Shown here: positions 18,492 through 39,089 of the stretch, piece after piece
Layout: the number at the start of each line of letters is the position of its first letter
Position numbering within the stretch: the stretch's first letter is position 1
Source of the DNA: Gammaproteobacteria bacterium
GTDB lineage: Bacteria; Pseudomonadota; Gammaproteobacteria; Enterobacterales; Alteromonadaceae
Length of the DNA stretch: 39,288 bases
Assembly: GCA_018815765.1 (NCBI GenBank)
Contig: JAHIWM010000201.1
Span: 1 to 39,288, forward strand
Direction: 5' to 3'
Translations under genes and position numbers: made by a program
Notes under the pieces: generated by a model
Told to the model about the DNA's origin: nothing
The model's input: only the letters and a program-made list of their open reading frames with translations
Databases searched by the model: none

Positions 18492-21119
18492 TCATCCTAA
18501 ATTCGGTGCTAACCAGCTTTCAGCTTGTTCTGCACTCCAGCCTTTTTTCGCGGCGTATTCATCTTTTTGGTCGGTGCCAATTTTGCTGACTGCAAAGTAT
18601 TTGCTATCCGGATGAGCAAAGTACCAACCACTGACTGCAGCACCAGGCCACATGGCATAACTTTCAGTCAGTTGGATGCCTGTTTGGGCTTCCACATCTA
18701 ACAGCTGCCATAAAGTGCCTTTTTCCGTATGCTCAGGACAAGCAGGATAACCAGGTGCAGGCCTTATACCCTGATATAACTCACGAATAAGTTGCTCGTT
18801 GTCCAGAACTTCGTCCGGCGCATAACCCCAGATTTCACGTCGTACCTTCATATGCAGGTATTCAGCTAATGCTTCAGCTAAACGGTCAGCTAAGGCTTTG
18901 ACCATAATGCTGTTGTAATCATCATGCTGAGCAGCAAATTCATCAGCCAGCTCGTCAGCACCAAAGCCAGTGCTGACAGCAAAACCACCAATGTAATCGG
19001 CAATGCCTGAATCCACAGGGGCAACAAAGTCAGCTAAGCAGCAGTTTGGATTGTCGTTACGCAGTTGCAATTGCTGACGTAAGTTGAATAAACGGCAACG
19101 TTCTGTGGTTCTGCTTTCGTCTGTGTAGACAATAATGTCATCACCCAGACTGTTCGCCGGAAAGAAGCCAAATACAGCTTTGCCCTGCACTTTCTTCTGC
19201 TGGATCATCAAGTCAAGAATAGCGTTGGCGTCTCTATGCACACGACGAGCTTCCATACCCACTTCAGGGTGATTCAAAATGGCAGGATATTTACCGGACA
19301 ATTGCCAGGTCAGGAAAAATGGCGTCCAGTCGATATAATCACGCAGCGTTTCTAAATCGACGTCTTGCCATAAATGCACACCAGGTTGTTTAGGCGCGGG
19401 AGCTACTTTGGCTAAATCCAGTTTGAATTTATTAGCGCGGGCTTGCTCCAATGTCAGCAGTTTTTCACCTGGACGACTGCGGGCATGCTGGTCACGCGCT
19501 CTGTCGTATTCGTCGTTCACTCGTTCCAAAAAGGCCGGCTTATGTTCTTTACTGATCAGCGACTGCACCACAGATACGCTACGCGAAGCATTAGGTACAT
19601 ACACCACTCCATGTTGGTAATTCGGTGCAATTTTTATCGCGGTATGAGCTTTGGATGTAGTAGCGCCGCCTATCAGCAACGGGATATCAAAACCTAAGCG
19701 GGTCATTTCTTTGGCTACATGCACCATCTCATCTAAAGACGGTGTAATAAGGCCAGACAAACCAATAATATCGACATTCAGCTCTTTGGCTTTTTGCAGC
19801 AAAGTCGCACAAGGCACCATCACACCAAGGTCTATGACTTCATAGTTATTGCACTGCAGCACTACGCCTACAATGTTTTTACCTATGTCGTGTACATCGC
19901 CTTTGACTGTCGCCATCAGTACTTTGCCCTGAGCCCGGGCGCCGGTACCGGCTTTTTCCAGTTCAATAAAAGGCTGTAAATAGGCCACTGCTTTTTTCAT
20001 GACTCGGGCGGATTTGACCACCTGAGGCAAGAACATTTTGCCTTCACCGAATAAGTCGCCGACTACGTTCATGCCGTCCATCAACGGACCTTCAATCACG
20101 TGCAAAGGACGCTCAACAGTTAAGCGGGCTTCTTCAGTGTCCTGATCAATAAAGTCGGTGATACCTTTGACTAACGCATGTTCAAGGCGTTTGTTCACAG
20201 GCCAGGCACGCCAGGCTTCGTCTTCTTTGACGGCAACAGAGCCATCACCTTTAAACTCGGCCGCAATGTCCAGCAATCGTTCTGTGGCATCTTCGCGTCG
20301 GTTTAAGATCACATCCTCAACCCGCTCACGTAATAACTCCGGAATATCGTCATAGACCGCCAACTGACCGGCGTTGACTATGCCCATATCCATACCAGCC
20401 CCAATGGCATGATACAAAAACACCGAGTGCATGGCTTCGCGCACTGGGTCGTTACCACGGAATGAAAAGGAGATATTAGATACGCCGCCTGAAATTTTGG
20501 CGTAAGGGCATAAGCGTTTGATTTCACGGGTGGCTTCAATAAAATCGACGGCGTAATTGTTGTGCTCTTCTATGCCGGTCGCCACAGCAAAAATATTCGG
20601 GTCGAAGATAATATCTTCTGGCGGAAAACCAATCTGATTAACCAGAATGTCATAAGCGCGCTGACAGATTTCGACTTTGCGGACTTTCGTATCAGCCTGA
20701 CCTTTTTCATCAAAGGCCATCACCACCACAGCAGCACCATAACGTCGTAGTAATTTTGCCTGGTATAAAAACGGCTCTATACCTTCTTTTAACGAAATAG
20801 AATTGACGACGGGTTTACCCTGAATACATTTCAGCGCCGCTTCAATCACTTCCCACTTGGATGAATCCACCATAATAGGCACACGGGAAATGTCCGGCTC
20901 AGATGCCAGTAAATTCAGGTAACGCACCATGGCCGCCTTGCTGTCGAGCATGGCTTCGTCCATGTTGATATCGATGATCTGAGCACCACTTTCAACTTGC
21001 TGGCGCGCAACATCCAAAGCTTTTTCGTATTCGCCTTCTAATATCAGCTTCTTAAAACGGGCTGAGCCTGTGACATTGGTGCGTTCACCAACGTTAATAA
21101 AACGGGCTTGTTGTCGCAT
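18492..21119 (-). CDS. metH: Methionine synthase, cobalamin-dependent, folate/B12/activation part (MetH2)
   Basis: These 875 residues cover everything of E. coli MetH after the homocysteine domain. There is a pterin/methyl-folate domain (starting [16 protein letters not shown]), a B12 cap and Rossmann domain with the cobalt-ligand His410 (GDVHDIGKN), then the AdoMet activation domain ([17 protein letters not shown]). With MetH1 it makes methionine by passing the methyl group from methyl-tetrahydrofolate through cobalamin to homocysteine. The ATG at 21119 shares one base with the stop of MetH1 (TAATG), with GGAG five bases before it, so the two are coupled. A GTG at 21125 is less likely. The retained activation domain shows it is a full enzyme half and not a remnant. 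Confidence 0.93.
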
Positions 21120-22183
21120 TACCACTCCAGACCAAAAGCTTCTAAACCAGACAAATGAAACTGGTGCGTTTTCTGTTTCGGCTGACGCGCAGGTAAACCG
21201 GCCACTACATCGCTGATGGCTTTAATATGTTCAGGCGTAGTGCCACAGCAGCCACCGACAATATTTAAAAAGCCCTGCTCTGCCCAATCGGCAATTTCTT
21301 TGGCCATCTCTACTGCACCTAAATCGTATTCGCCAAATTCATTCGGTAAGCCTGCATTTGGATGCACTGAGACATAACATTCTGAAATACCAGACAAAGT
21401 CTCAACATAAGGCCGTAATAAGTCTGGCCCTAAAGCGCAGTTCAGACCAAAGCTGACCGGTTGCACATGAGCTAATGAATGGTAGAAAGCTTCTGTAGTT
21501 TGGCCGGATAAAGTACGACCTGAGGCGTCGGTGATAGTGCCGGATATCATCACAGGTAAACTGTAACCCAGTTCATCAAACACTTTCAGTACCGCAAAAG
21601 CGGCGGCTTTGGCATTTAAAGTATCAAAGATGGTTTCGAGCATAATAATGTCGGCGCCACCTTCAATCAGTGCATGAGTAGATTCAGAATAAGCGCTGAC
21701 TAAAGTATCAAAATCGACATTACGGTAACCCGGATCGTTTACATCAGGTGAAATAGAAGCCGTTCTGTTGGTTGGGCCTAATACACCAGCCACAAAACGT
21801 GGTTTATCCGGCGTGCTGTATTCATCACAAGCCTGACGCGCTAAAGCCGCTGACTCGCGATTGATGCGAGCCGATAAATGCGACATATCGTAATCGGCCA
21901 TAGCGATAGGCGTAGCGTTAAAGCTGTTGGTTTCCAGAATATCAGCGCCAGCGGCTAAGTACTTACGATGAATATCCAGAATAAGTTGGGGTTGAGTCAG
22001 CACCAGCAAGTCGTTATTACCTTTCAGATCGGTAGACCAGTCAGCAAACTCAGTGCCACGATAATCATCTTCCTGCAATTTATATTGCTGGATCATGGTA
22101 CCCATAGCACCATCTAACACCAAAATACGCTCTGCCAACAGCGCACGAAGGGCATCCGGAGTTAACCTACTGCGATTGATCAT
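21119..22183 (-). CDS. Homocysteine S-methyltransferase domain of methionine synthase (MetH1)
   Basis: This 354-residue protein is the N-terminal homocysteine-binding barrel of MetH as a separate polypeptide. It begins [15 protein letters not shown]. The zinc thiolates are Cys249 (GLNCALG) and Cys312-Cys313 ([10 protein letters not shown]). The end, [12 protein letters not shown], aligns with the linker of E. coli MetH (LSGLEPLNIGED), so the split falls exactly between two domains. It follows metA by two bases and overlaps metH2 by one, forming a metA-metH1-metH2 operon. A stand-alone S-methylmethionine-type methyltransferase is possible by family name, but the adjacent complementary half makes that unlikely. 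Confidence 0.92.
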
Positions 22184-29739: not shown

Positions 29740-30495
29740 TTAAATCCCCTGCCCGCCTGATACTTCTATACGTTGGGCATTGACCCAACGATGGTCTTCC
29801 GACAATAAACTGGCCACCATAGGGCCTATATCATCAGCAACTCCGACCCGGCCTAAAGCCGTCATATCGGCAAAAAACTTATTAAAGTCTGGTGTATCAC
29901 GCACTGCTCCGCCAAAAAAGTCAGTTTCTATGGCTCCTGGCGCTACCGTATTGACTGCTATACCACGTGGACCAAACTCTTTTGCCATATAGACGGTCAG
30001 CATTTCCACTGCGGCTTTGACCGCAGCATAAGCCGCCCAGCCAGGCGCTGATACCCGGGTTAAGCCAGTAGATAAATTCACAATACGCCCTCCATCTGCC
30101 AATAAAGGCAACAGCGCCTGAGTCAAGAAAAACACACCTTTAAAATGCACATTCACCAGTTGGTCAAATTGAGTCTCTGTGGTGTGCTCAATAAGGGCAT
30201 AGTCACCATGACCGGCATTATTCACCAAATGCTCAAAGCTATCGCGTTGCCAGATGTCAGCCAGCACAATGCGTAACCGCTCAGCAAAGTTGGCAAAACC
30301 TGCGACAGCGCCAGTGTCCAGCTGCAGAGCAACAGCTTTGCGCCCCATAGCGCGAATTTGTGTCACTACAGCTTGCGCCTCTTGCTCGCGACTCTGATAA
30401 GTGATGATGACATCTGCGCCACGACGGGCAATATTCAGTGCGGTATTACGGCCAAGGCCACGGCTGGCACCTGTTACTAAAGCGATTTTAGTCAT
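29740..30495 (-). CDS. SDR family oxidoreductase
   Basis: This 251-residue short-chain dehydrogenase/reductase has the NAD(P)-binding TGASRGLG at 8-15, the structural NNAG motif, a catalytic serine in NLSTG and the YxxxK pair as YAAVK, then PGAIETDF. An arginine-free but SR-containing first loop fits NADP preference weakly. The substrate is unknown. The ATG at 30495 has an AGGAG site before it. It is divergent from an AraC regulator with 137 bases between, the usual arrangement of a regulator and its target. Confidence 0.9.
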   Translation of the reverse strand: MTKIALVTGASRGLGRNTALNIARRGADVIITYQSREQEAQAVVTQIRAMGRKAVALQLDTGAVAGFANFAERLRIVLADIWQRDSFEHLVNNAGHGDYALIEHTTETQFDQLVNVHFKGVFFLTQALLPLLADGGRIVNLSTGLTRVSAPGWAAYAAVKAAVEMLTVYMAKEFGPRGIAVNTVAPGAIETDFFGGAVRDTPDFNKFFADMTALGRVGVADDIGPMVASLLSEDHRWVNAQRIEVSGGQGI

Positions 30496-30514
30496 GCGTT
30501 TTCTCCTGTGGTTT

Positions 30515-30559
30515 AAGACCCCTGCATGCTAAAGAAAAGCTGCTGAAGGGTCTTTACCC
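30515..30559. promoter_or_regulatory. Inverted repeats in the SDR/AraC divergent region
   Basis: AAGACCC (30515-30521) and GGGTCTT (30548-30554) are inverted copies 26 bases apart; the second is also part of the small palindrome GGGTCTTTACCC (30548-30559). They could be operator sites for the AraC protein. No promoter was assigned. Confidence 0.3.
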
Positions 30560-30632
30560 GAAGATCCGCATTTTTTGCTTAATTCTCCAAAGCTCTTGCG
30601 AAGGCCAATTCTGGTAGCCTAGAGTATCAACC

Positions 30633-31550
30633 ATGAAAGATACGCTATTAAACACTGTGCGCCGTTATGTTGAGGCTTATGCCAACCCAAATGGTCTTGC
30701 ACAAACGCCCATTATCGGCCTGACCACTATCCGTTCGAATACCCCAAGCGGACTCGAATATGCAATCTCGCGCCCACTGGTTTGTCTGGTCCTGCAGGGC
30801 AAAAAACAAGTGGTGATGGGCTCAGAGGTATTTGACTTTAGTACCGGTGATTCTTTGTTGATCAGTGCCGATGTACCGACCATCAGTCAAATTACAGAGG
30901 CAAGCCTGGATGCCCCTTATATCTCGCTGGTACTGGATTTGGATCTGAGTGTGATTGCTGAGCTGACGGAACAAATGGCGCAGCCCAGAGAAAGTACAAA
31001 GCATCCGGTGCAGGTTGAACCTACCGATCAGCAAGTGGCAGATGCAGCTTTGCGCTTGATGAACTTGTTAGACAGACCTGAATCAGTGCCTGTGCTGCAC
31101 AAACAACTGGTGCGGGAGATGCACTACTGGTTGTTAGCTGGACGCCATGGTGCTGCCATTCAGCGGCTTGGCTATCAGGACAGCCATATCCGACAAATAG
31201 CCAAAGCTGTGGCTGTACTCAGAGCAGATTTTCGTTTGCCACTGCAGATGGAGCAACTGGCCGCTATTGCAGGCATGAGCCCTTCATCCTTTTATCAGCA
31301 CTTTCGCGCTGTGACTTCGTTGTCGCCGCTGCAATTTCAGAAGCAATTACGGTTAATAGAAGCACGACGTTTAATGCGTGCTGAAGGCTTAAAAGCTGGC
31401 AGCGCAGCTTTTGCAGTAGGCTACGAAAGCGTGCCGCAATTTACCCGTGAATACAGCAGGATGTTTGGTTTGACTCCGCAAAAAGATACAGCACAAGGCA
31501 GAACCAGCACTGTTCACATCGGCACTACATCCACTTCCACTTCTAACTGA
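30633..31550 (+). CDS. AraC family transcriptional regulator
   Basis: This 305-residue regulator has an N-terminal AraC-type cupin arm (SRPLVCLVLQGKKQVVMG to about 120) for a small effector and a C-terminal pair of helix-turn-helix motifs (about 190-285: MEQLAAIAGMSPSSFYQHFRAVTSLSPLQFQK and the following AFAVGYESVPQFTREYSRMFG). It probably controls the divergent SDR gene. The last 12 codons (a Thr/Ser-rich tail) overlap the 3' end of the convergent transglutaminase gene by 37 bases. Confidence 0.9.
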   Translation: MKDTLLNTVRRYVEAYANPNGLAQTPIIGLTTIRSNTPSGLEYAISRPLVCLVLQGKKQVVMGSEVFDFSTGDSLLISADVPTISQITEASLDAPYISLVLDLDLSVIAELTEQMAQPRESTKHPVQVEPTDQQVADAALRLMNLLDRPESVPVLHKQLVREMHYWLLAGRHGAAIQRLGYQDSHIRQIAKAVAVLRADFRLPLQMEQLAAIAGMSPSSFYQHFRAVTSLSPLQFQKQLRLIEARRLMRAEGLKAGSAAFAVGYESVPQFTREYSRMFGLTPQKDTAQGRTSTVHIGTTSTSTSN

Positions 31551-32395
31551 TGCACACCATGGCCCTGCAGCAAGCCTTTCAGTGGCACTACATCGGCATA
31601 GTCGCGGCCATAAGCTAAGGTGATATGACGTTCTGCCGGCATCAGGTTATTGGTGGGATCAAAATCGACCCAACCCAATTCTGGATCGTACACGGCAAAC
31701 CAGGCATGAGAGGCATCAGCTCCTATTAAACGTGGCTGACCTTCTGGTGGTGAGGTTTCCAGATACCCACTGACATAACGACTGGGAATACCTAAGGCGC
31801 GCAGACAGCTGACTGCCAGTTGGGCGAAATCCTGACAGACCCCTTTTTTATGCAGCAGCACTTCGGATACAGGAGTGACGACTGAGCTAAATTCAGGGTC
31901 GTATTCAAACTGGTGAAAAATCAGATCGGTCAGTTGTTGCGCCAGCTGTAATACAGTCAAAGTCGGGTCAGCTATGCTCTGGATCAATGCCTTTGTTTCA
32001 TCAAGCACTGGGATCATCCGGCTTGGACCAGTGCACAACAGTGCCTTGAGTTGATCGGGTGAATAACCTTGTTGCTGGCGGAAAAAAGCTGCGACTTGTG
32101 GCCAGGGCTGAGTTAAATCCAAAGCCAGACTCTGCTGGCGTGGCAAAACTTCAACCACAGAATAAGCGGTCACTGCCAGTTGCTGATGCGGCGGCTGCAA
32201 GTGGATAAAATGCTGGGTATTACCAAAGGTATCTGTTCTGGCATAAACAGAAGATGCTGTGGGCAACACCTCTAAGTTAAAACTGCACAGCTCCTGTGTC
32301 GGTAATTGCCGTGGCCGCAAACAAGCCAGATTGTAACTGTTAGCCACAGGATGCTGGTAACAATAACGGGTCAGGTGACGGATCTGGTACTTCAT
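31514..32395 (-). CDS. Transglutaminase-like cysteine peptidase/ligase family protein
   Basis: This 293-residue protein has the N-terminal strand domain of bacterial transglutaminase-like proteins (MKYQIRHLTRYCYQHPV) and a full Cys-His-Asp triad: Cys187 (GVCQDFA), His230 (SHAWF) and Asp244/246 (WVDFDPTN). Such proteins hydrolyse or form amide bonds. It is the last gene of an operon with circularly permuted ATP-grasp and alpha-E proteins, a set that recurs in bacteria and was predicted by Iyer and Aravind to make or process peptide-like products. It begins 58 bases after the ATP-grasp/alpha-E fusion. It has no signal peptide, so it is cytoplasmic. Confidence 0.9.
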   Translation of the reverse strand: MKYQIRHLTRYCYQHPVANSYNLACLRPRQLPTQELCSFNLEVLPTASSVYARTDTFGNTQHFIHLQPPHQQLAVTAYSVVEVLPRQQSLALDLTQPWPQVAAFFRQQQGYSPDQLKALLCTGPSRMIPVLDETKALIQSIADPTLTVLQLAQQLTDLIFHQFEYDPEFSSVVTPVSEVLLHKKGVCQDFAQLAVSCLRALGIPSRYVSGYLETSPPEGQPRLIGADASHAWFAVYDPELGWVDFDPTNNLMPAERHITLAYGRDYADVVPLKGLLQGHGVHQLEVEVDVVPM

Positions 32396-32453
32396 ATAGT
32401 CGGCCCTATGACTCTGTCCCCAAAGTAATTAAAATCAAGTAAGAAGGGGGCCA

Positions 32454-34931
32454 TTAAAAACTCTGCCAGGATTTACCCGCTTCCGCATGGCTGAAATACG
32501 ACAAGGTAATGCTGTCAGACAATTGCCTTAGCACGGTATGCAACTGCTGTAATAAACGACTCAGCTCTGGTGTTGCCTGTAACTGATCATCAAAGAGTTG
32601 TTCTGGTTCAGCCAGTTGCAGTAAAGACACCAGCTCCACTGCCAGTTTTTGCTCACGGCTCAGCACCACAGCTGCACCAGGTTTAGGCAGTTGCTGAATT
32701 TGACTGGCAAGACGGGCGCACTGATAACCTACAGAACGAGGCGTACTGTCATCCAGTAGCAGCAAGTCAATCACAGCCAGCGGGTGCAGCTCGGTTTTAT
32801 AACGGCGCCTGTAGGTCATTAAAGTATCCGTCATACGCAGCACAGACTCCATCAACGAAGCGCTGCAATTCCTGCCCTGATCAAATACAAAAACTTCCTG
32901 CAGCAGGGTGACACTTTGCAATGCCCTTTCCATATGCTGACCTAAATCCATAAACCTCAGGGTTTGAGTGCGGCTCATGGTTTCGTTATTCAGACCATAA
33001 ATAGCAGTTTGTAGCAAAATCACTTCATCCAGCAAACGCACCATTTGCTGCGGCTGCTGCCAGTTCAGCGGATTCGGCCATTGCGTCAGCGCCAGCTGTA
33101 ATTTATCCAGCACATACCAGGTGTCTTCGCTGAAGTATTCCCGCACCGACTGCGCATTAAACAATAAATTTTTCAGCACCTGCGCCAAACCTGCCGGATG
33201 CTGCAGTGAAAACAATTCACTTAAGGCCTGCTGCAAGGCGCTGGTCTGCTGTAATGAACTCAGCGCTGCGCTGTCTGGCAAAGTGCCATTGGCCTGCAAA
33301 CAAAACCGTACTAATGCTCTGCTGTCAGTTTGTTGACCCGCTGTGACCTGGAAACTGGTTAAGAGCGGCACTGTGTAACGTAAAGCCCGACAAACTAAAT
33401 TTAATCGTTCGTTATAACGACCCAGCCAGAATAAATGGTCGGCGACGCGGCTTGGCAACAAGCCACTATGACGGGATAACAAGATGCGTTTTTGGGTATT
33501 TTGCAGCAAGCTGACCGCATGGTCCTGATCGGCAAGCACCCAGACATCTTTGGCAACAAACCCCATACTGTACTGATGCTGCAGGCTTTGCGCATCAGGG
33601 CTGATACGAGCCAAAGCGCCAGGCATCACAGCCGGACTATGCTGCTCGGACAACAAACCAAATAAACGCAAGACGCCATACTGCTGATGCTCGCCTTGAG
33701 TCGTGTTCCAGCATGGTACAGAGCACAATGGCAGCAAGCGAATCGCAATAAAAAGTTCAGGATAAGCCGCTAATTGCTGCTGTAACTCTTGTTGTTGCAG
33801 CGGGTCCAGTTCAGTCCAAAGCCAGCTTTGGGCTGTATCAATTCTGCGGAATCTGTACTGGCTTGCATCAGATAAAACCTGTTGCAACTGCTCAGGTTTA
33901 CCACACCAAAAAGCGGTAGTAGTGGGCAATTGCAATTCTTCATTTAGAAGCGTTCGGCAAAGCGCAGGCAAAAAGGGCAATAACACACCGGAGTCCACTA
34001 AGGCAGCTCCTGGCGGATTGGCGCAAAACAGCTGCTGCTGACGAATGCTTTGCAATAAACCTGCAGTGCCTGTGGAGTCCGGATCCAGCTCCAGCGCATC
34101 ACAACGGGCATCAGGTAAATAGCGCATCAGGCTGTCGACCTGCTGCAAACCTGTGACAGTTTTTAACCACAAAGCACCGTCTTTAAACATCAGATCGGCG
34201 CTGTGCATCAGGGCTATATCTAAATAATTGGCTAAAAAAGCATGTTCAAAATAGGCGGCGTCGCGTTTGCCATGGGTTAATAAACCACAAAGCGGTCGTC
34301 GCCCTTCGGCGGTATGGCCAGTCCCTTGCGCAAACACCAGCTGCAATTTACGGAAAAACCCGGCCAGCTGGCTTTTGCCAATGCTGTGATTCAGCTCACC
34401 AATACAATGGTTAAACGCCAGCCTGTGTTCTAATACAAAACCCAGCCCTGCCGGCATCTGGCTCTGATCGGCATAGACACAAAACTGACCTGCGGCATCG
34501 CGGCCTATATCTACAGCCAACAAACTCAGCCACTGCTGATGAGTGGGTACCAACTGATGGCAAGGCAACAGATAGTTTTTATTCTGGAAAATAAGTTCAG
34601 CAGGCAATAGCCCCTGCTGGATCATGAGCTGTGGACCGTATAAATCCTGCAATACCATAGAAAGCAGCAATTGACGCTGCTTTACACCAGCCTGCAACTG
34701 TTGCCACTCTTTATCACTCACCAGCCATGGCATTAGATCCAACTGACGTTGTTGCTCCAGCCAGGGATCAAAAGTAGCACCGTTTTCCCGCAGCTGATGT
34801 TGCAAATCTGTATGCAGCTGCACTAAATGCTGCTGGCTTTGCTGCTGCCACCACTGCTGCAATTGCTGCCACTGCGGCAAATCAGTCCATCTTAGTTGCT
34901 CGCTCAACTCCTGACTTTCCACAGTCATCAT
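32454..34931 (-). CDS. Circularly permuted ATP-grasp type 2 / alpha-E fusion protein
   Basis: This 825-residue protein joins an ATP-grasp-like domain (about 1-480) to an alpha-E domain (from about 490: HLFWLGRYNERLNLVCRALRY). The first part parallels the separate ATP-grasp gene upstream (LLSMVLQDLYGPQ, LLPAELIF, YFEHAFLANYLDIAL, GLQQVDSLMRYLPD). But the conserved VVKPANESGGYG of that gene appears here as a RFRRIDTAQSW-like stretch, and the SSQGGGSKDTW motif as SMGFVAKDVW. So ATP-binding residues look lost, and it may be a regulatory or scaffold partner. It is unusually rich in glutamine. The start overlaps the alpha-E stop (ATGA). Family and order are clear, function is not. Confidence 0.88.
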   Translation of the reverse strand: MMTVESQELSEQLRWTDLPQWQQLQQWWQQQSQQHLVQLHTDLQHQLRENGATFDPWLEQQRQLDLMPWLVSDKEWQQLQAGVKQRQLLLSMVLQDLYGPQLMIQQGLLPAELIFQNKNYLLPCHQLVPTHQQWLSLLAVDIGRDAAGQFCVYADQSQMPAGLGFVLEHRLAFNHCIGELNHSIGKSQLAGFFRKLQLVFAQGTGHTAEGRRPLCGLLTHGKRDAAYFEHAFLANYLDIALMHSADLMFKDGALWLKTVTGLQQVDSLMRYLPDARCDALELDPDSTGTAGLLQSIRQQQLFCANPPGAALVDSGVLLPFLPALCRTLLNEELQLPTTTAFWCGKPEQLQQVLSDASQYRFRRIDTAQSWLWTELDPLQQQELQQQLAAYPELFIAIRLLPLCSVPCWNTTQGEHQQYGVLRLFGLLSEQHSPAVMPGALARISPDAQSLQHQYSMGFVAKDVWVLADQDHAVSLLQNTQKRILLSRHSGLLPSRVADHLFWLGRYNERLNLVCRALRYTVPLLTSFQVTAGQQTDSRALVRFCLQANGTLPDSAALSSLQQTSALQQALSELFSLQHPAGLAQVLKNLLFNAQSVREYFSEDTWYVLDKLQLALTQWPNPLNWQQPQQMVRLLDEVILLQTAIYGLNNETMSRTQTLRFMDLGQHMERALQSVTLLQEVFVFDQGRNCSASLMESVLRMTDTLMTYRRRYKTELHPLAVIDLLLLDDSTPRSVGYQCARLASQIQQLPKPGAAVVLSREQKLAVELVSLLQLAEPEQLFDDQLQATPELSRLLQQLHTVLRQLSDSITLSYFSHAEAGKSWQSF

Positions 34932-35890
34932 CAGGCCGACATTTGCTGGCTGAGATCTGCGGAAAATTCAAGTTTTGGCGTACTAATCACCTGATGCAAT
35001 TCAATGATCCCTGTTTGAAATTGGTCAATCAGCTGATGCAGCTGACCTGTGGTTAATTCTGATAAGTTTTGTGTTTTTAACAAGTCCTGCAACTGCCAGA
35101 CCCGTTGCAATATAGCAGCACTATGAGGCAAAGCTTTGGCTGATGCAGCCACTCTATGCAAACAATAGGCAAGAGAGCGTGGAAAGTCAGCGTAGGTCAG
35201 CAAATAGTCCACCGCATCCACTTCAGTGTTTTGATGCGCCAGATAATAGTGGTACGACTCTACCCCACCCAAAGCATTTAAAATAGAAGTCCAGCGAAAA
35301 CGTGGTCTTTTAATATCCGTCGGCTGCAGCTGCTGCAATACCATCACATCCATAATACGGGTGGTCATATCAGCCCGCTCCACATGCCTGCCAATATTAA
35401 ATAAATCAAAGGCATCGCTACGCAGCATAGTGCCGTCCAGCACCCCCACTACCATCTGACAACGGCGGCTGACCTCCGTCATTAAGCGGTATCTGTGCTG
35501 ACGCCCTTGTAACTGCTGGCAATGCTCCTGTAAAAACAAATCCAGTGAATTCAGCTCTTCCCACATATCACGGGGGATCAGTTGTCGTACTGTTCTGGCA
35601 TTTTGTTTTAGTGCGCTACAAGCCGAACGGATAGAGACTTCACTGTCGGCATCGGTAATTAAAAAGCCCATCACCTGCTGCTCTACCGTCAAATCGCTTG
35701 GTGGTAACTGACTTAAGAGTTCAGCGCCATTCTGACCTAATACGTCCAGTAATAAGGGCCAGCTGAACTGGCTGTCTTTGTGACTGTCGATCAGCAAATG
35801 GCTGGTGGCATTAATTAAGCGCGCCGTATCATCCAAACGCTCCAGATAACGGCCTAACCAGAATATATGATCCAAAGATTTTAATAACAT
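34931..35890 (-). CDS. Alpha-E domain-containing protein
   Basis: This 319-residue all-helical protein belongs to the alpha-E family (MLLKSLDHIFWLGRYLERLDDTARLINA, a hallmark N terminus; later FNIGRHVERADMTTRIMDV). The family has no known activity but almost always sits beside a circularly permuted ATP-grasp gene, suggesting a complex. It begins three bases after the ATP-grasp stop and overlaps the next gene, so all are co-translated. A second alpha-E copy is fused in the next gene. Confidence 0.9.
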   Translation of the reverse strand: MLLKSLDHIFWLGRYLERLDDTARLINATSHLLIDSHKDSQFSWPLLLDVLGQNGAELLSQLPPSDLTVEQQVMGFLITDADSEVSIRSACSALKQNARTVRQLIPRDMWEELNSLDLFLQEHCQQLQGRQHRYRLMTEVSRRCQMVVGVLDGTMLRSDAFDLFNIGRHVERADMTTRIMDVMVLQQLQPTDIKRPRFRWTSILNALGGVESYHYYLAHQNTEVDAVDYLLTYADFPRSLAYCLHRVAASAKALPHSAAILQRVWQLQDLLKTQNLSELTTGQLHQLIDQFQTGIIELHQVISTPKLEFSADLSQQMSA

Positions 35891-35893
35891 AGA

Positions 35894-37345
35894 TCAGACC
35901 TCATCGTTGATGATCCAGGTGTCTTTGCTACCGCCGCCTTGCGACGAATTGACCACCAAAGAGCCTTTTTTCAGCGCAACCCGGCTTAAACCGCCTGTGG
36001 TGCAATACAAATCTCTGCCCTGCAAAATAAAGGGCCGTAAATCTAAATGCCGTGGTTCCAGCACACCGTCACATAAAGTAGGAGCTGTGGATAACGCCAG
36101 AGTCGGCTGAGCAATAAAATTGCGCGGATTGGCTTTAATAGCCTCCGCCATTTGTTGTTGCTCTTCTTTGGTAGAACGTGGGCCTATCAAAATGCCGTAA
36201 CCACCGGATTCATTGGCAGGTTTCACCACCAGTTGATCCAGATTAGCCAATACATACTCACGCTGTTTTGGATCCAGACACAAATAGGTAGGAACGTTAT
36301 CAATCAGCGGTTGTTCGCCCAAATAATAATTTATGATTTCAGGCACATAGGCGTAAATCACTTTATCGTCGGCAACCCCAGAACCAGGTGCATTGGCGAT
36401 AGACACATTGCCTTTGGCCCATGCTTTGATCAAACCCGGAATACCTAAAACTGAATCGGGCCGGAAAGCTTGTGGGTCGATAAAAATATCGTCCACCCTG
36501 CGATAAATCACATCCACGCGTTGCAGGCCATGCAGAGTTTTTAAATAGACGATGTCATCCTGCACCAGCAAATCGGTATTTTCAGCCAGCTCAACACCCA
36601 TTTGCTGGGCTAAAAAGCTGTGCTCGAAATAAGCCGAGTTGTAGACACCGGGGGTCAACAACACTATGCAGGGGACATCACCAGGGCGAGGCGATAAAGA
36701 GGCCAACATACGCCAGAGTTGATGCGGGTAGTCGTCTACAGGGTAGATAAAGGAGTCGGCAAATAATTCCGGAAAAACCCGTTTCATCACAGTGCGGTTT
36801 TCCAGCATATAAGACACGCCAGATGGTACCCTTAAGTTATCTTCAAGCACTAAAAATTTGCCAGAGCCATCACGCACCAAATCAGTCCCACAGATATTGG
36901 CCCACACCCCATAACGGGGCGAAATGCCCTTACATGGTGCAAGGTAGTTGCGGGAGTCCAGCACTAAATCAGCCGGTACTATACCGTCTTTAAGGATGCG
37001 CTGGTCGTGGTATAAGTCGTCAATAAACAGGTTTAAAGCGGCTAAACGTTGTTTCAGGCCAGCACTGGTTTTTTGCCATTCTGAGCTTGGGATAGTGCGT
37101 GGCATTACATCCAAAGGCCAGCAACGGTCGATATTATTGCCGTCAGAATACAAGGTAAAGCAAACGCCCATAGCGCTAATCGTTTGATTTAACTGCTCTT
37201 GCCTTTGAATAAGCTCAGCAGAGCCGTGGCGATCAATAAAACGTGCTATAGCCGCAGCTGGTGGTCGTATTTGTCCATCCGCCTGCACCAGCTCATCAAA
37301 ACACTGGCTGATTTGCTGATAGTGCCCAAAACTTTTTGCACCCAT
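35894..37345 (-). CDS. Circularly permuted type 2 ATP-grasp protein (putative peptide ligase)
   Basis: This 483-residue protein heads the operon. It shows LVLEDNLRVPSGVSYMLENR, the DVIYRRVDD stretch, VVKPANESGGYG at about 371-383 and the C-terminal RVALKKGSLVVNSSQGGGSKD, all conserved in the active family, in circularly permuted order relative to classic ATP-grasp ligases. It should activate a carboxylate with ATP and join it to an amine; substrate unknown. A strong ribosome site (GGAAGGAG, six bases) precedes the ATG at 37345. It is followed by alpha-E, fusion and transglutaminase genes. Confidence 0.92.
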   Translation of the reverse strand: MGAKSFGHYQQISQCFDELVQADGQIRPPAAAIARFIDRHGSAELIQRQEQLNQTISAMGVCFTLYSDGNNIDRCWPLDVMPRTIPSSEWQKTSAGLKQRLAALNLFIDDLYHDQRILKDGIVPADLVLDSRNYLAPCKGISPRYGVWANICGTDLVRDGSGKFLVLEDNLRVPSGVSYMLENRTVMKRVFPELFADSFIYPVDDYPHQLWRMLASLSPRPGDVPCIVLLTPGVYNSAYFEHSFLAQQMGVELAENTDLLVQDDIVYLKTLHGLQRVDVIYRRVDDIFIDPQAFRPDSVLGIPGLIKAWAKGNVSIANAPGSGVADDKVIYAYVPEIINYYLGEQPLIDNVPTYLCLDPKQREYVLANLDQLVVKPANESGGYGILIGPRSTKEEQQQMAEAIKANPRNFIAQPTLALSTAPTLCDGVLEPRHLDLRPFILQGRDLYCTTGGLSRVALKKGSLVVNSSQGGGSKDTWIINDEV

Positions 37346-37590
37346 TGGCGACTCCTTCCCGTCCGATACGACCCGAACAACATCAGTTCAAGGCCTGCTT
37401 TTTTTGTTCTGTATCAGAAAGGAGCAAGGGTTATGCCAGCACGGAATACAGACACCATGAGTCAATCTATGTGACAGGCCAGCACCCTTTACCTCCCCAA
37501 AACATTCGCATATAGCTACTGAAAGATGAGTTAGTATCAGATATTTAGGATATTTTAACTATTCACCTCAGAGACGAAACTGAAATAAAA

Positions 37591-37609: not shown

Positions 37610-37624
37610 CTGTCTCTTATACAC

Positions 37625-37656
37625 AAATCCCCCGGTTTTTACCGGGGGATTTTTTT
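37625..37656 (+). terminator. Terminator at the left end of the IS
   Basis: A perfect 12-bp stem (37625-37636 with 37641-37652) with a TTTT loop is followed by a T run. It lies between the left end and the transposase start, so it should stop outside transcripts from reaching the transposase. Confidence 0.88.
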
Positions 37657-37712
37657 GAACTATCAGCATCCCTCTCGATCAGATCTTTCACTTAATCTAC
37701 AGGTGAATAGTG

Positions 37713-39078
37713 ATGAACAACGCGCAGTGGGCAAAAGATACGTTTGGTCAGGCCGACTTAGGGGATCCCCGCCGAACCACACGTCTGGTAAAGTTAACTG
37801 AAACCTTAGCGAACGAACCAGGAAAGCCATTCGTGTCTATCACACAATCCCCCGCCGACATGGAAGGCGCCTATCGTTTTATCCGTAATGAGCACGTCAA
37901 TGCTGACGCGATAGCAAAAGCTGGCTACCAGGTCACGGCAGAGCAAGCCGCCAAACATACTTTATTACTGGCCTTAGAGGATACCACCGCTATTACTTAC
38001 AGCCATCGTTCTGTGCGAGATGAGCTAGGTCATGTCAATCAAGGAAACAACTGTCGGGGCATACTTGCACACAGCGTTTTGTTATTCGCTCCTGAGCAAC
38101 AGGAGCTTGTTGGATTAATTGAACAATCCCGCTGGACAAGTGACATCAGCGCGCGGAAAGAAACATGTGCGAGCACAAACACCTTATGAAGAAAAAGAAA
38201 GCTTCAAGTGGCAGTCCGCTTCGGTCAATCTATCGGCACGATTAGTCGCTAAAATGGCCGATGTGATATCCGTCTGCGATCGGGAGGCCGATATCTATGA
38301 GTACTTGCAGTATAAGCTCTCAAAGCAACATCGTTTCGTGGTTCGTTCCATGCAGAGTCGCCATATTGAGCAGTCTGAGGATAAGCTCTACCACTATGCA
38401 GCAGGTCTTGAAAACGCCGGACAAAAGCAAATCCATATAGCGCAAAAAGGTGGACGTAAAGCACGTACAGCAACAGTAAACATTGTATTTGCACCATTCA
38501 CGTTGCAAGTCCCCGCAAATCAGCGTGGCGAGTCACTAGCACTTTACTATGTCGGGTGCGAAGAGCGAACCGATGACAAGGACGCGTTAAATTGGCATTT
38601 GCTGACTACCGAACCAGTCCAAAGCAAAGCTGATGCACTGAACATCATCCGTTATTACGAGCATCGCTGGTTAGTTGAGGAATATCACAAAGCGTGGAAA
38701 ACGGATGGTACAGATATTGAGAATGCCCGCTTACAAAGTAAAGATAACATTGAGCGGCTTGTGACCATCAGCGCCTTTATTGCTGCAAGAATAGTGCAGC
38801 TGAAGTTTGCGCGCGAACAGCCAGATGATGTGAGCTGTGAACAGGTACTGTCGCCAAAAGCATGGAAATTGTTATGGATAAAACGGGTCAGTAGAACATT
38901 ACCTGACACAGTCCCTTCGATGAAGTGGGCTTATACCGAGCTTGCGAGGCTCGGTGGGTGGAAGGATACAAAACAAACCGGCAAGGCTTCGGTCAAGGTG
39001 TTGTGGCAAGGATGGTTCAAACTGCAAACCATCCTTGAAGGGTATGACCTCGCGAAGTCTCTTGAGGCTGACTTGTGA
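37713..39078 (+). pseudogene. IS4-family (Tn5-type) transposase, frameshifted
   Basis: Two overlapping frames together match Tn5 transposase end to end. The first (ATG 37713, AGGTG seven bases before) runs to 38189 and has the first catalytic aspartate (ALEDTT, codon 37980). The second, shifted by +1, carries CDREAD (aspartate codon 38278) and the YREK signature YEHRWLVEEYHKAWK (glutamate codon 38677), ending at 39078 within the right end. The switch falls near 38150, where one extra base in a GCGCGGAAAG stretch would explain it. No slippery sequence is obvious, and IS50 does not use frameshifting, so it is probably a dead gene or a sequencing error. All DDE residues are kept. Confidence 0.88.
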
Positions 39079-39089
39079 TCAAGAGACAG

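Follow-up and report, generated by a model that had tools for sequence, protein, structure and literature searches.

Operons that encode an ATP-grasp protein, an alpha-E protein, a transglutaminase and Anbu were predicted by Iyer and colleagues in 2009 to form a tagging or peptide-synthesis system, as related in the available parts of later papers (PMC6376114, PMC5666114). In the accessible text on Yersinia bercovieri, the ATP-grasp protein of the Anbu operon frees phosphate from ATP, and Anbu has no peptidase activity (PMC6376114). The available part of a review, citing a thesis, tables among nematicidal examples a clone of metagenomic origin whose genes encode ATP-grasp, alpha-E, transglutaminase and protease proteins (PMC7764037). 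Here, we describe a related operon in a 39,288 bp stretch of DNA (contig JAHIWM010000201.1 of GenBank assembly GCA_018815765.1; hereafter, the window) from a gammaproteobacterium of the family Alteromonadaceae. Its four genes encode a stand-alone ATP-grasp protein (G), a stand-alone alpha-E protein (E), a fusion of both domain types and a transglutaminase-like protein (T). A first-pass annotation had proposed that an active ATP-grasp enzyme is paired here with an inactive one and that this type of locus has no established product. None is given in the literature searched, with the original 2009 survey outside its reach; in that literature, this common gene family has neither a substrate nor a product.

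The two ATP-grasp domains of the operon differ at the predicted Mg/ATP site. Judged by sequence, stand-alone G has the complete site, whereas in the fusion the lysine and the glycine loop are absent and the predicted magnesium-ligand motif (ExN) reads ADQ, which agrees with the annotation's picture of one ATP-grasp protein with the site, one without it and two alpha-E modules. In an alignment with window G, the VVKPANESGGYG region is lost from the fusion, as had been noted, but the other motif said to be missing, SSQGGGSKDTW, is only partly gone, its K-D-x-W persisting as AKDVW. LEDNLRVPSG of G is replaced by YADQSQMPAG, so that E-D-N becomes A-D-Q; the annotation did not mention this change, which appears from the alignment to be the most telling one in the fusion. 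The E-x-N of this motif presumably binds magnesium in glutathione and glutathionylspermidine synthetases.

The comparison covered 195 G domains, 120 fused (from other loci) and 75 stand-alone (including that of the window), with eight short ones dropped. They came from 80 named loci found with a fusion profile and from further loci at the genus, order and phylum levels; for the phylum, 28 of the 36 fusions listed were retrieved, including the 11 highest-scoring and likeliest to be intact. Twenty-five residues were scored, with window G as the reference. All 25 are kept in 74 of the 75 stand-alone proteins (73/74 without the reference) and at most 14 in any fusion; the first of these counts is to some extent built in, since the residues were chosen among those that stand-alone G conserves, and the finding is the contrast. 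ExN is present in 75/75 stand-alone proteins and 0/120 fusions, and no fusion has the full D155/E168/N170 set (G numbering). Taken singly, E168 is kept in one fusion (L116; 0/69 after thinning at 70% identity), N170 in eight, D327 in none, K328 in one (L132), K375 in 33 and D435 in none. The loop glycines 381, 382 and 384 are kept in 24, 15 and 5 fusions, respectively, and all three together in L128 only. E168 is replaced variously by A, G, S, N or R, and the fusions have conserved residues of their own at G positions 30 (W), 178 (G), 249 (L), 293 (E), 346 (L), 355 (W) and 357 (G). The 11 predicted site positions are lost more often than randomly drawn invariant ones (permutation P 0.0005), a post hoc value since they were picked after conservation had been inspected. 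The degenerate ATP-grasp domain is not a peculiarity of this locus, being near-invariant across the 120 other fusions and separated by an old split; the predicted active/inactive pair holds, and more broadly than first stated. The fused site very probably does not work as an ordinary Mg-ATP site. Among the 75 stand-alone proteins, a single homologue (L144:7224-8672) is partly changed, with 17 of the 25 scored residues, ExN and K375 kept and the glycine loop changed.

A FastTree phylogeny placed fused and stand-alone G in one clade each (support 1.0, stem 0.90, 0/195 misplaced), so a single ancestral inactive lineage accounts for the sample. Fusions were found in Proteobacteria, Planctomycetes, Verrucomicrobia and Actinomycetes, according to contig titles and domain scans, and the fused domain appears to have been inactivated long ago and kept so in many bacterial groups. 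The ratio of non-synonymous to synonymous substitution rates (dN/dS), calculated pairwise to the window over six common loci with pairs that are not independent, was 0.059 for fused G, 0.016 for stand-alone G, 0.023 for MutS and 0.082 for a neighbouring PhoD-like gene. Fused G is thus under strong purifying selection, although it evolves faster than stand-alone G. The fusion reading frame is open in 16/16 genus sequences aligned; a 17th genome (G012) has a fragment only.

The structure model of the fusion has a predicted local distance difference test score (pLDDT) of 90.1 and a predicted template modelling score (pTM) of 0.86. Its G domain matches PDB entry 3n6x with a template modelling (TM) score of 0.78 and glutathione synthetase 2hgs with a TM score of 0.63, both by target length. 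The annotation had held that the fused domain keeps its fold and lacks its site: the modelled ATP-grasp fold is intact, and the missing site residues are read from the sequence. The stand-alone E model is all-helical (pLDDT 88.9), and comparison with the PDB gave neither a fold match (best Foldseek E 0.5) nor a sequence match. Alpha-E, in its stand-alone and fused forms, is therefore a confidently modelled domain that may possibly represent an unsolved fold. Paired E-R residues typical of this helical domain are kept in fused and stand-alone alpha-E (96-100%). D174, R178 and D181 are present in 95-99% of stand-alone E proteins and are not kept in fused alpha-E.

Stand-alone G accompanies the fusion in all 74 genome listings checked that had a fusion-sized match: 12/12 in the order sample, 36/36 among the matches listed for the phylum and 26/26 named genomes, which are mostly from other groups and were chosen because their fusion locus was already in the sample. 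Fusion status was taken from frame length and confirmed on DNA for 12/12 (order) and 28/36 (phylum). In one named genome (G381), stand-alone G is fragmented at the end of a contig, and an over-long mechanical frame in one of the 26 was resolved as stand-alone G followed by E. The reverse is not true: 7 of the 19 positive genomes in the order sample carry stand-alone G alone, and G-E pairs can be found with no fusion. Of 200 genomes sampled from the window's phylum, 116 contain PF14403; alpha-E is present in 17 of 22 genus genomes and in none of the other five. Viral contigs searched with the fusion gave no match, in a search that reaches close relatives only.

Three arrangements were found: (i) G-E-T, in which an Anbu-like protein adjoins T in the one case checked (L120); (ii) a transglutaminase-DUF2126 protein (T-DUF2126; ~1100-1200 aa) together with the fusion and T, the G-E pair being either close by or in another place; and (iii) G-E-fusion-T, the window's type, which we call group A and whose contig titles name Rheinheimera, Arsukibacterium, Alkalimonas, Marinobacter, Pokkaliibacter and Larsenimonas. 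T lies directly downstream of 106 of the 110 evaluable fusions (exceptions L068, L071, L076 and L079). Within the limited flanks, stand-alone G shares the locus stretch of the fusion in at least 61/117 cases (29/31 in group A, 32/86 in the others).

In the window, the four-gene operon proposed by the annotation proved exact in its coordinates, and the Pfam assignments agree with it (Table 1). The gap between G and E is 3 bp, the end of E shares 1 bp with the start of the fusion (TGATG), and 58 bp separate the fusion from T. G covers the whole PF14403 model at 541 bits (cut-off 32) and matches 3n6x over residues 14-481 (E 2.6e-156); E matches PF04168 at 230 bits. The fusion matches the whole of PF14403 with residues 68-443 (328 bits, cut-off 32) and PF04168 with residues 492-813. 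The Cys-His-Asp triad of T is also present in 133/133 related T proteins and 57/57 T-DUF2126 proteins aligned. The genome is Rheinheimera-like: the closest named contig is from Rheinheimera faecalis, and over the best segment its fusion shares 98% identity with that of the window.

Table 1. Coordinates of the operon, its predicted functional motifs and its predicted promoter in the window
Feature	Position	Strand	Size and basis
G: stand-alone circularly permuted type-2 ATP-grasp, predicted active amide ligase	35894..37345	-	483 aa; PF14403; PDB 3n6x
E168-D169-N170 of G, predicted Mg2+-ligand motif (ExN)	36836..36844	-	translation checked; ExN conservation
E: stand-alone alpha-E protein	34931..35890	-	319 aa; PF04168
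Pseudo-G-E fusion	32454..34931	-	825 aa; Pfam and structure model
Predicted pseudo-ATP-grasp domain of fusion, residues 19-468	33528..34877	-	PF14403; 3n6x fold match; ATP-site residues lost
A154-D155-Q156 of fusion, replacing E-D-N	34464..34472	-	alignment to G, translation
Alpha-E domain of fusion, residues 494-808	32508..33452	-	PF04168
T: bacterial transglutaminase-like, triad C187-H230-D246	31514..32395	-	293 aa; PF08379, PF01841
Sigma-54 (-24/-12) promoter, predicted	37423..37438	-	TGGCATAACCCTTGCT; 93 to 78 bp upstream of G start codon

Two partners known from related clusters are absent from operons of this type. DUF2126, a glutamine synthetase (GS)-like amidoligase that we take to be a component of the peptide-tagging system of the Iyer type, was found in 0/22 genus genomes, with Synechococcus elongatus positive as the control genome, and was absent from nine of ten other group-A genomes, Pokkaliibacter having one. 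T-DUF2126 is encoded on the same strand in 62/86 fusion loci outside group A and 0/31 within it; PF09899 matched in 4/4 of the large T-DUF2126 proteins scanned. A search for Anbu with PF00227 (proteasome family), a model that detects an Anbu-like control protein at 38.5 bits, gave one match per genome in 22/22 genus genomes; in the window's assembly, which is 91% complete, the only match is HslV beside hslU. Ten of ten further genomes (nine with the window's operon type) also had one match each, not individually told apart as HslV or Anbu. A Rheinheimera-type operon without DUF2126 and Anbu is new here. G-E-fusion-T is the smallest fusion-bearing set found and suits reconstitution.

Upstream of G, the window has a good sigma-54 element (Table 1), which is found in 14/14 genus upstream regions, where the sequence farther upstream differs between species. 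With starts corrected by profile, at least 9/10 consensus bases occur upstream of 28 of 30 group-A operons, several of which are close relatives, whereas mononucleotide shuffles average 0.12. The misses are L044 (8/10) and L061, and the L046 match lies at an unusually long distance upstream. When mechanical start codons were used, the element was found at 21/30 operons compared with 27/1874 other open reading frames (ORFs). The whole window has two sigma-54 matches where 0.44 are expected, a number that 7/100 shuffles reach, so the claim rests on conservation and not on the single match. The genome also encodes one RpoN-type protein, and the operon is predicted from these features to belong to the sigma-54 regulon.

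Clusters in other bacteria point to a signal. In the available part of a Burkholderia cenocepacia study, I35_5080-83 change by log2 -8.2, -9.4, -9.4 and -6.0 in an ntrC mutant and appear in a list of targets common to sigma-54 and NtrC (PMC5491218). Pseudomonas putida PP_2685 and PP_2688 rise by log2 4.44 and 3.99 on nitrate over ammonium in the accessible data of another (PMC8050072). By analogy with these clusters, which have no evident fusion, the sigma-54-driven operon of the window is probably nitrogen-regulated, and its product would probably be made under nitrogen limitation.

Positions 37346-37422, which separate the G start codon from the sigma-54 element, are strongly conserved among the closest species. 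Farther upstream, a Tn5/IS50-like insertion sequence of 1480 bp (37610-39089) has left the sigma-54 element in place. Its ends are CTGTCTCTTATACACA and TGATCAAGAGACAG, it is flanked by a 12-bp direct repeat (GCAGTTAAATGC), and its transposase is split into frames 37710-38189 and 38119-39078. The relative L023 is uninterrupted at this site.

On balance, we consider it somewhat probable that the operon is a sigma-54-controlled amide (peptide) ligation module in which one catalytic and one obligate non-catalytic ATP-grasp protein feed a transglutaminase. Going by its family, stand-alone G would activate a carboxylate as an acyl phosphate and join it to an amine, like the glutathione-synthetase-type ATP-grasps, and alpha-E would be its helical partner, as both the G-E gene pairs and the fusion suggest. 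The fusion may be an anciently duplicated G-E unit that lost the usual Mg-ATP binding and was retained as a subunit with a structural or substrate-holding role; it would work with the active G-E pair and pass a product or carrier to the adjacently encoded cysteine transglutaminase. With a pseudoenzyme partner predicted in every sampled fusion, the substrate-holding and catalytic roles become separable for testing. We put forward a wider proposal only tentatively: that the catalytic/pseudo-catalytic ATP-grasp pair may be obligate across phyla, with the fusion as a non-catalytic core coupling an acyl-phosphate ligase to a transglutaminase, and that the Rheinheimera-type operon may be its minimal sigma-54-driven form, independent of Anbu and DUF2126.

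Besides the built-in part of the 25-residue score, several observations weigh against such a pair. D155 is kept in 102/120 fusions, Q413 in 67/120, R437 and D475 in 120/120, W477 in 119/120 and K474 in 103/120, so some nucleotide binding may persist, and L116, L132 and L128 keep E168, K328 and the three loop glycines, respectively. The active-site assignment itself rests on the ligand residues presumed for this family, on the glutathione synthetase fold matches and on a profile alignment (hhalign) of G with GSP_synth, in which D155, E168, N170, K328 and K375 fall on corresponding motifs (ENN/ELN, VVKP) with a non-significant E of 0.17. As regards regulation, no convincing NtrC palindromes were seen upstream, by eye in the genus alignment and in a simple GG-N10-GC listing, and neither nitrogen-responsive cluster has an evident fusion in the available annotation. 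In Y. bercovieri, Anbu used as bait gave no specific interaction with the Anbu-operon proteins, according to the accessible text (PMC6376114).

The retained residues also bear on what else the fused domain might do. It could have been repurposed as a ligand sensor or carrier-binding site that never acts on ATP and that regulates or recruits the transglutaminase, with no complex with stand-alone G. The near-constant neighbour of the fusion is indeed T (106/110), stand-alone G sharing the locus in at least 61/117 cases, and the seven fusion-specific conserved positions, together with R437, D475 and W477, could line a different site; however, stand-alone G is present in every fusion-bearing genome listing checked and the window has both in one operon, and we regard this explanation as unlikely, though a serious competitor. 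Some pseudokinases catalyse through a non-canonical nucleotide site, and the fused domain may still be catalytic in the same manner. Its fold is intact, L128 has its three glycines, and K375 (33/120), Q413, D155, K474 and R437 are retained to the extents given above, but the lost residues are replaced variably, with no single new conserved loop set, and the intact D/E/N set occurs in 0/120 fusions, which makes continued catalysis improbable.

A decaying, functionless duplicate would be expected to evolve quickly, and fused G does have a dN/dS ~3.7 times that of stand-alone G and a larger mean within-group patristic distance (1.187 compared with 0.312). Its dN/dS is nevertheless that of a strongly constrained gene, lower than the PhoD-like neighbour's, its frame is open throughout the aligned genus sequences and fusions span several phyla. 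The decaying pseudogene is largely contradicted by dN/dS, and we give it hardly any credence. The proposed pairing of a catalytic with a non-catalytic ATP-grasp protein remains the reading that we prefer.

Other features of the window lie outside the operon. The operon is separated from the PhoD-like gene by a short-chain dehydrogenase/reductase (SDR) gene and an AraC-type regulator gene (29740-31550), the latter convergent with the transglutaminase gene and sharing 37 bp with it. The SDR-AraC pair is present in the relatives L011, L020, L022 and L023 and absent in L012, L014, L015, L017, L019 and L024. Methionine synthase MetH (18492-22183) is divided between two ORFs, one for the homocysteine methyltransferase domain (354 aa) and one for the remainder (877 aa), and adjoins a homoserine O-succinyltransferase gene.

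The novelty of the locus is limited because the type of system is already known. No description of an inactive ATP-grasp partner was found in the literature searched, which did not reach Iyer 2009 or Valas and Bourne 2008, and an earlier notice is possible. Within the ATP-grasp fold, G resembles the glutathione, trypanothione and glutathionylspermidine synthetases (GSS-type ATP-grasps) in fold and in the register of its ExN and VVKP motifs, but no significant sequence relation to them was found for G by profile alignment. The structure 3n6x is Methylobacillus flagellatus Mfla_0391, a putative glutathionylspermidine synthase that shares its fold with G and the fused G domain; unlike 3n6x, the fusion lacks the predicted ATP-site residues and carries alpha-E.

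Among gene clusters, the Anbu operon system, as far as the available parts of its descriptions go, also has stand-alone ATP-grasp, alpha-E and transglutaminase genes in one operon, and a nitrogen response is reported for its P. putida cluster; the window differs in its added pseudo-G-E fusion and in that Anbu was not found. The accessible annotation of B. cenocepacia I35_5080-83 lists DUF404/407 (ATP-grasp), DUF403 (alpha-E) and small and large transglutaminase-like proteins, dependent on sigma-54 and NtrC. Unlike the window, it has a large transglutaminase-like protein and no evident fusion. The T-DUF2126/G-E fusion/T clusters of Proteobacteria, Planctomycetes and Verrucomicrobia have a transglutaminase-DUF2126 protein of ~1100-1200 aa that the window lacks, but in them, as in the window, the same fusion precedes a transglutaminase of the same kind, and the fused ATP-grasp domain is degenerate there too.

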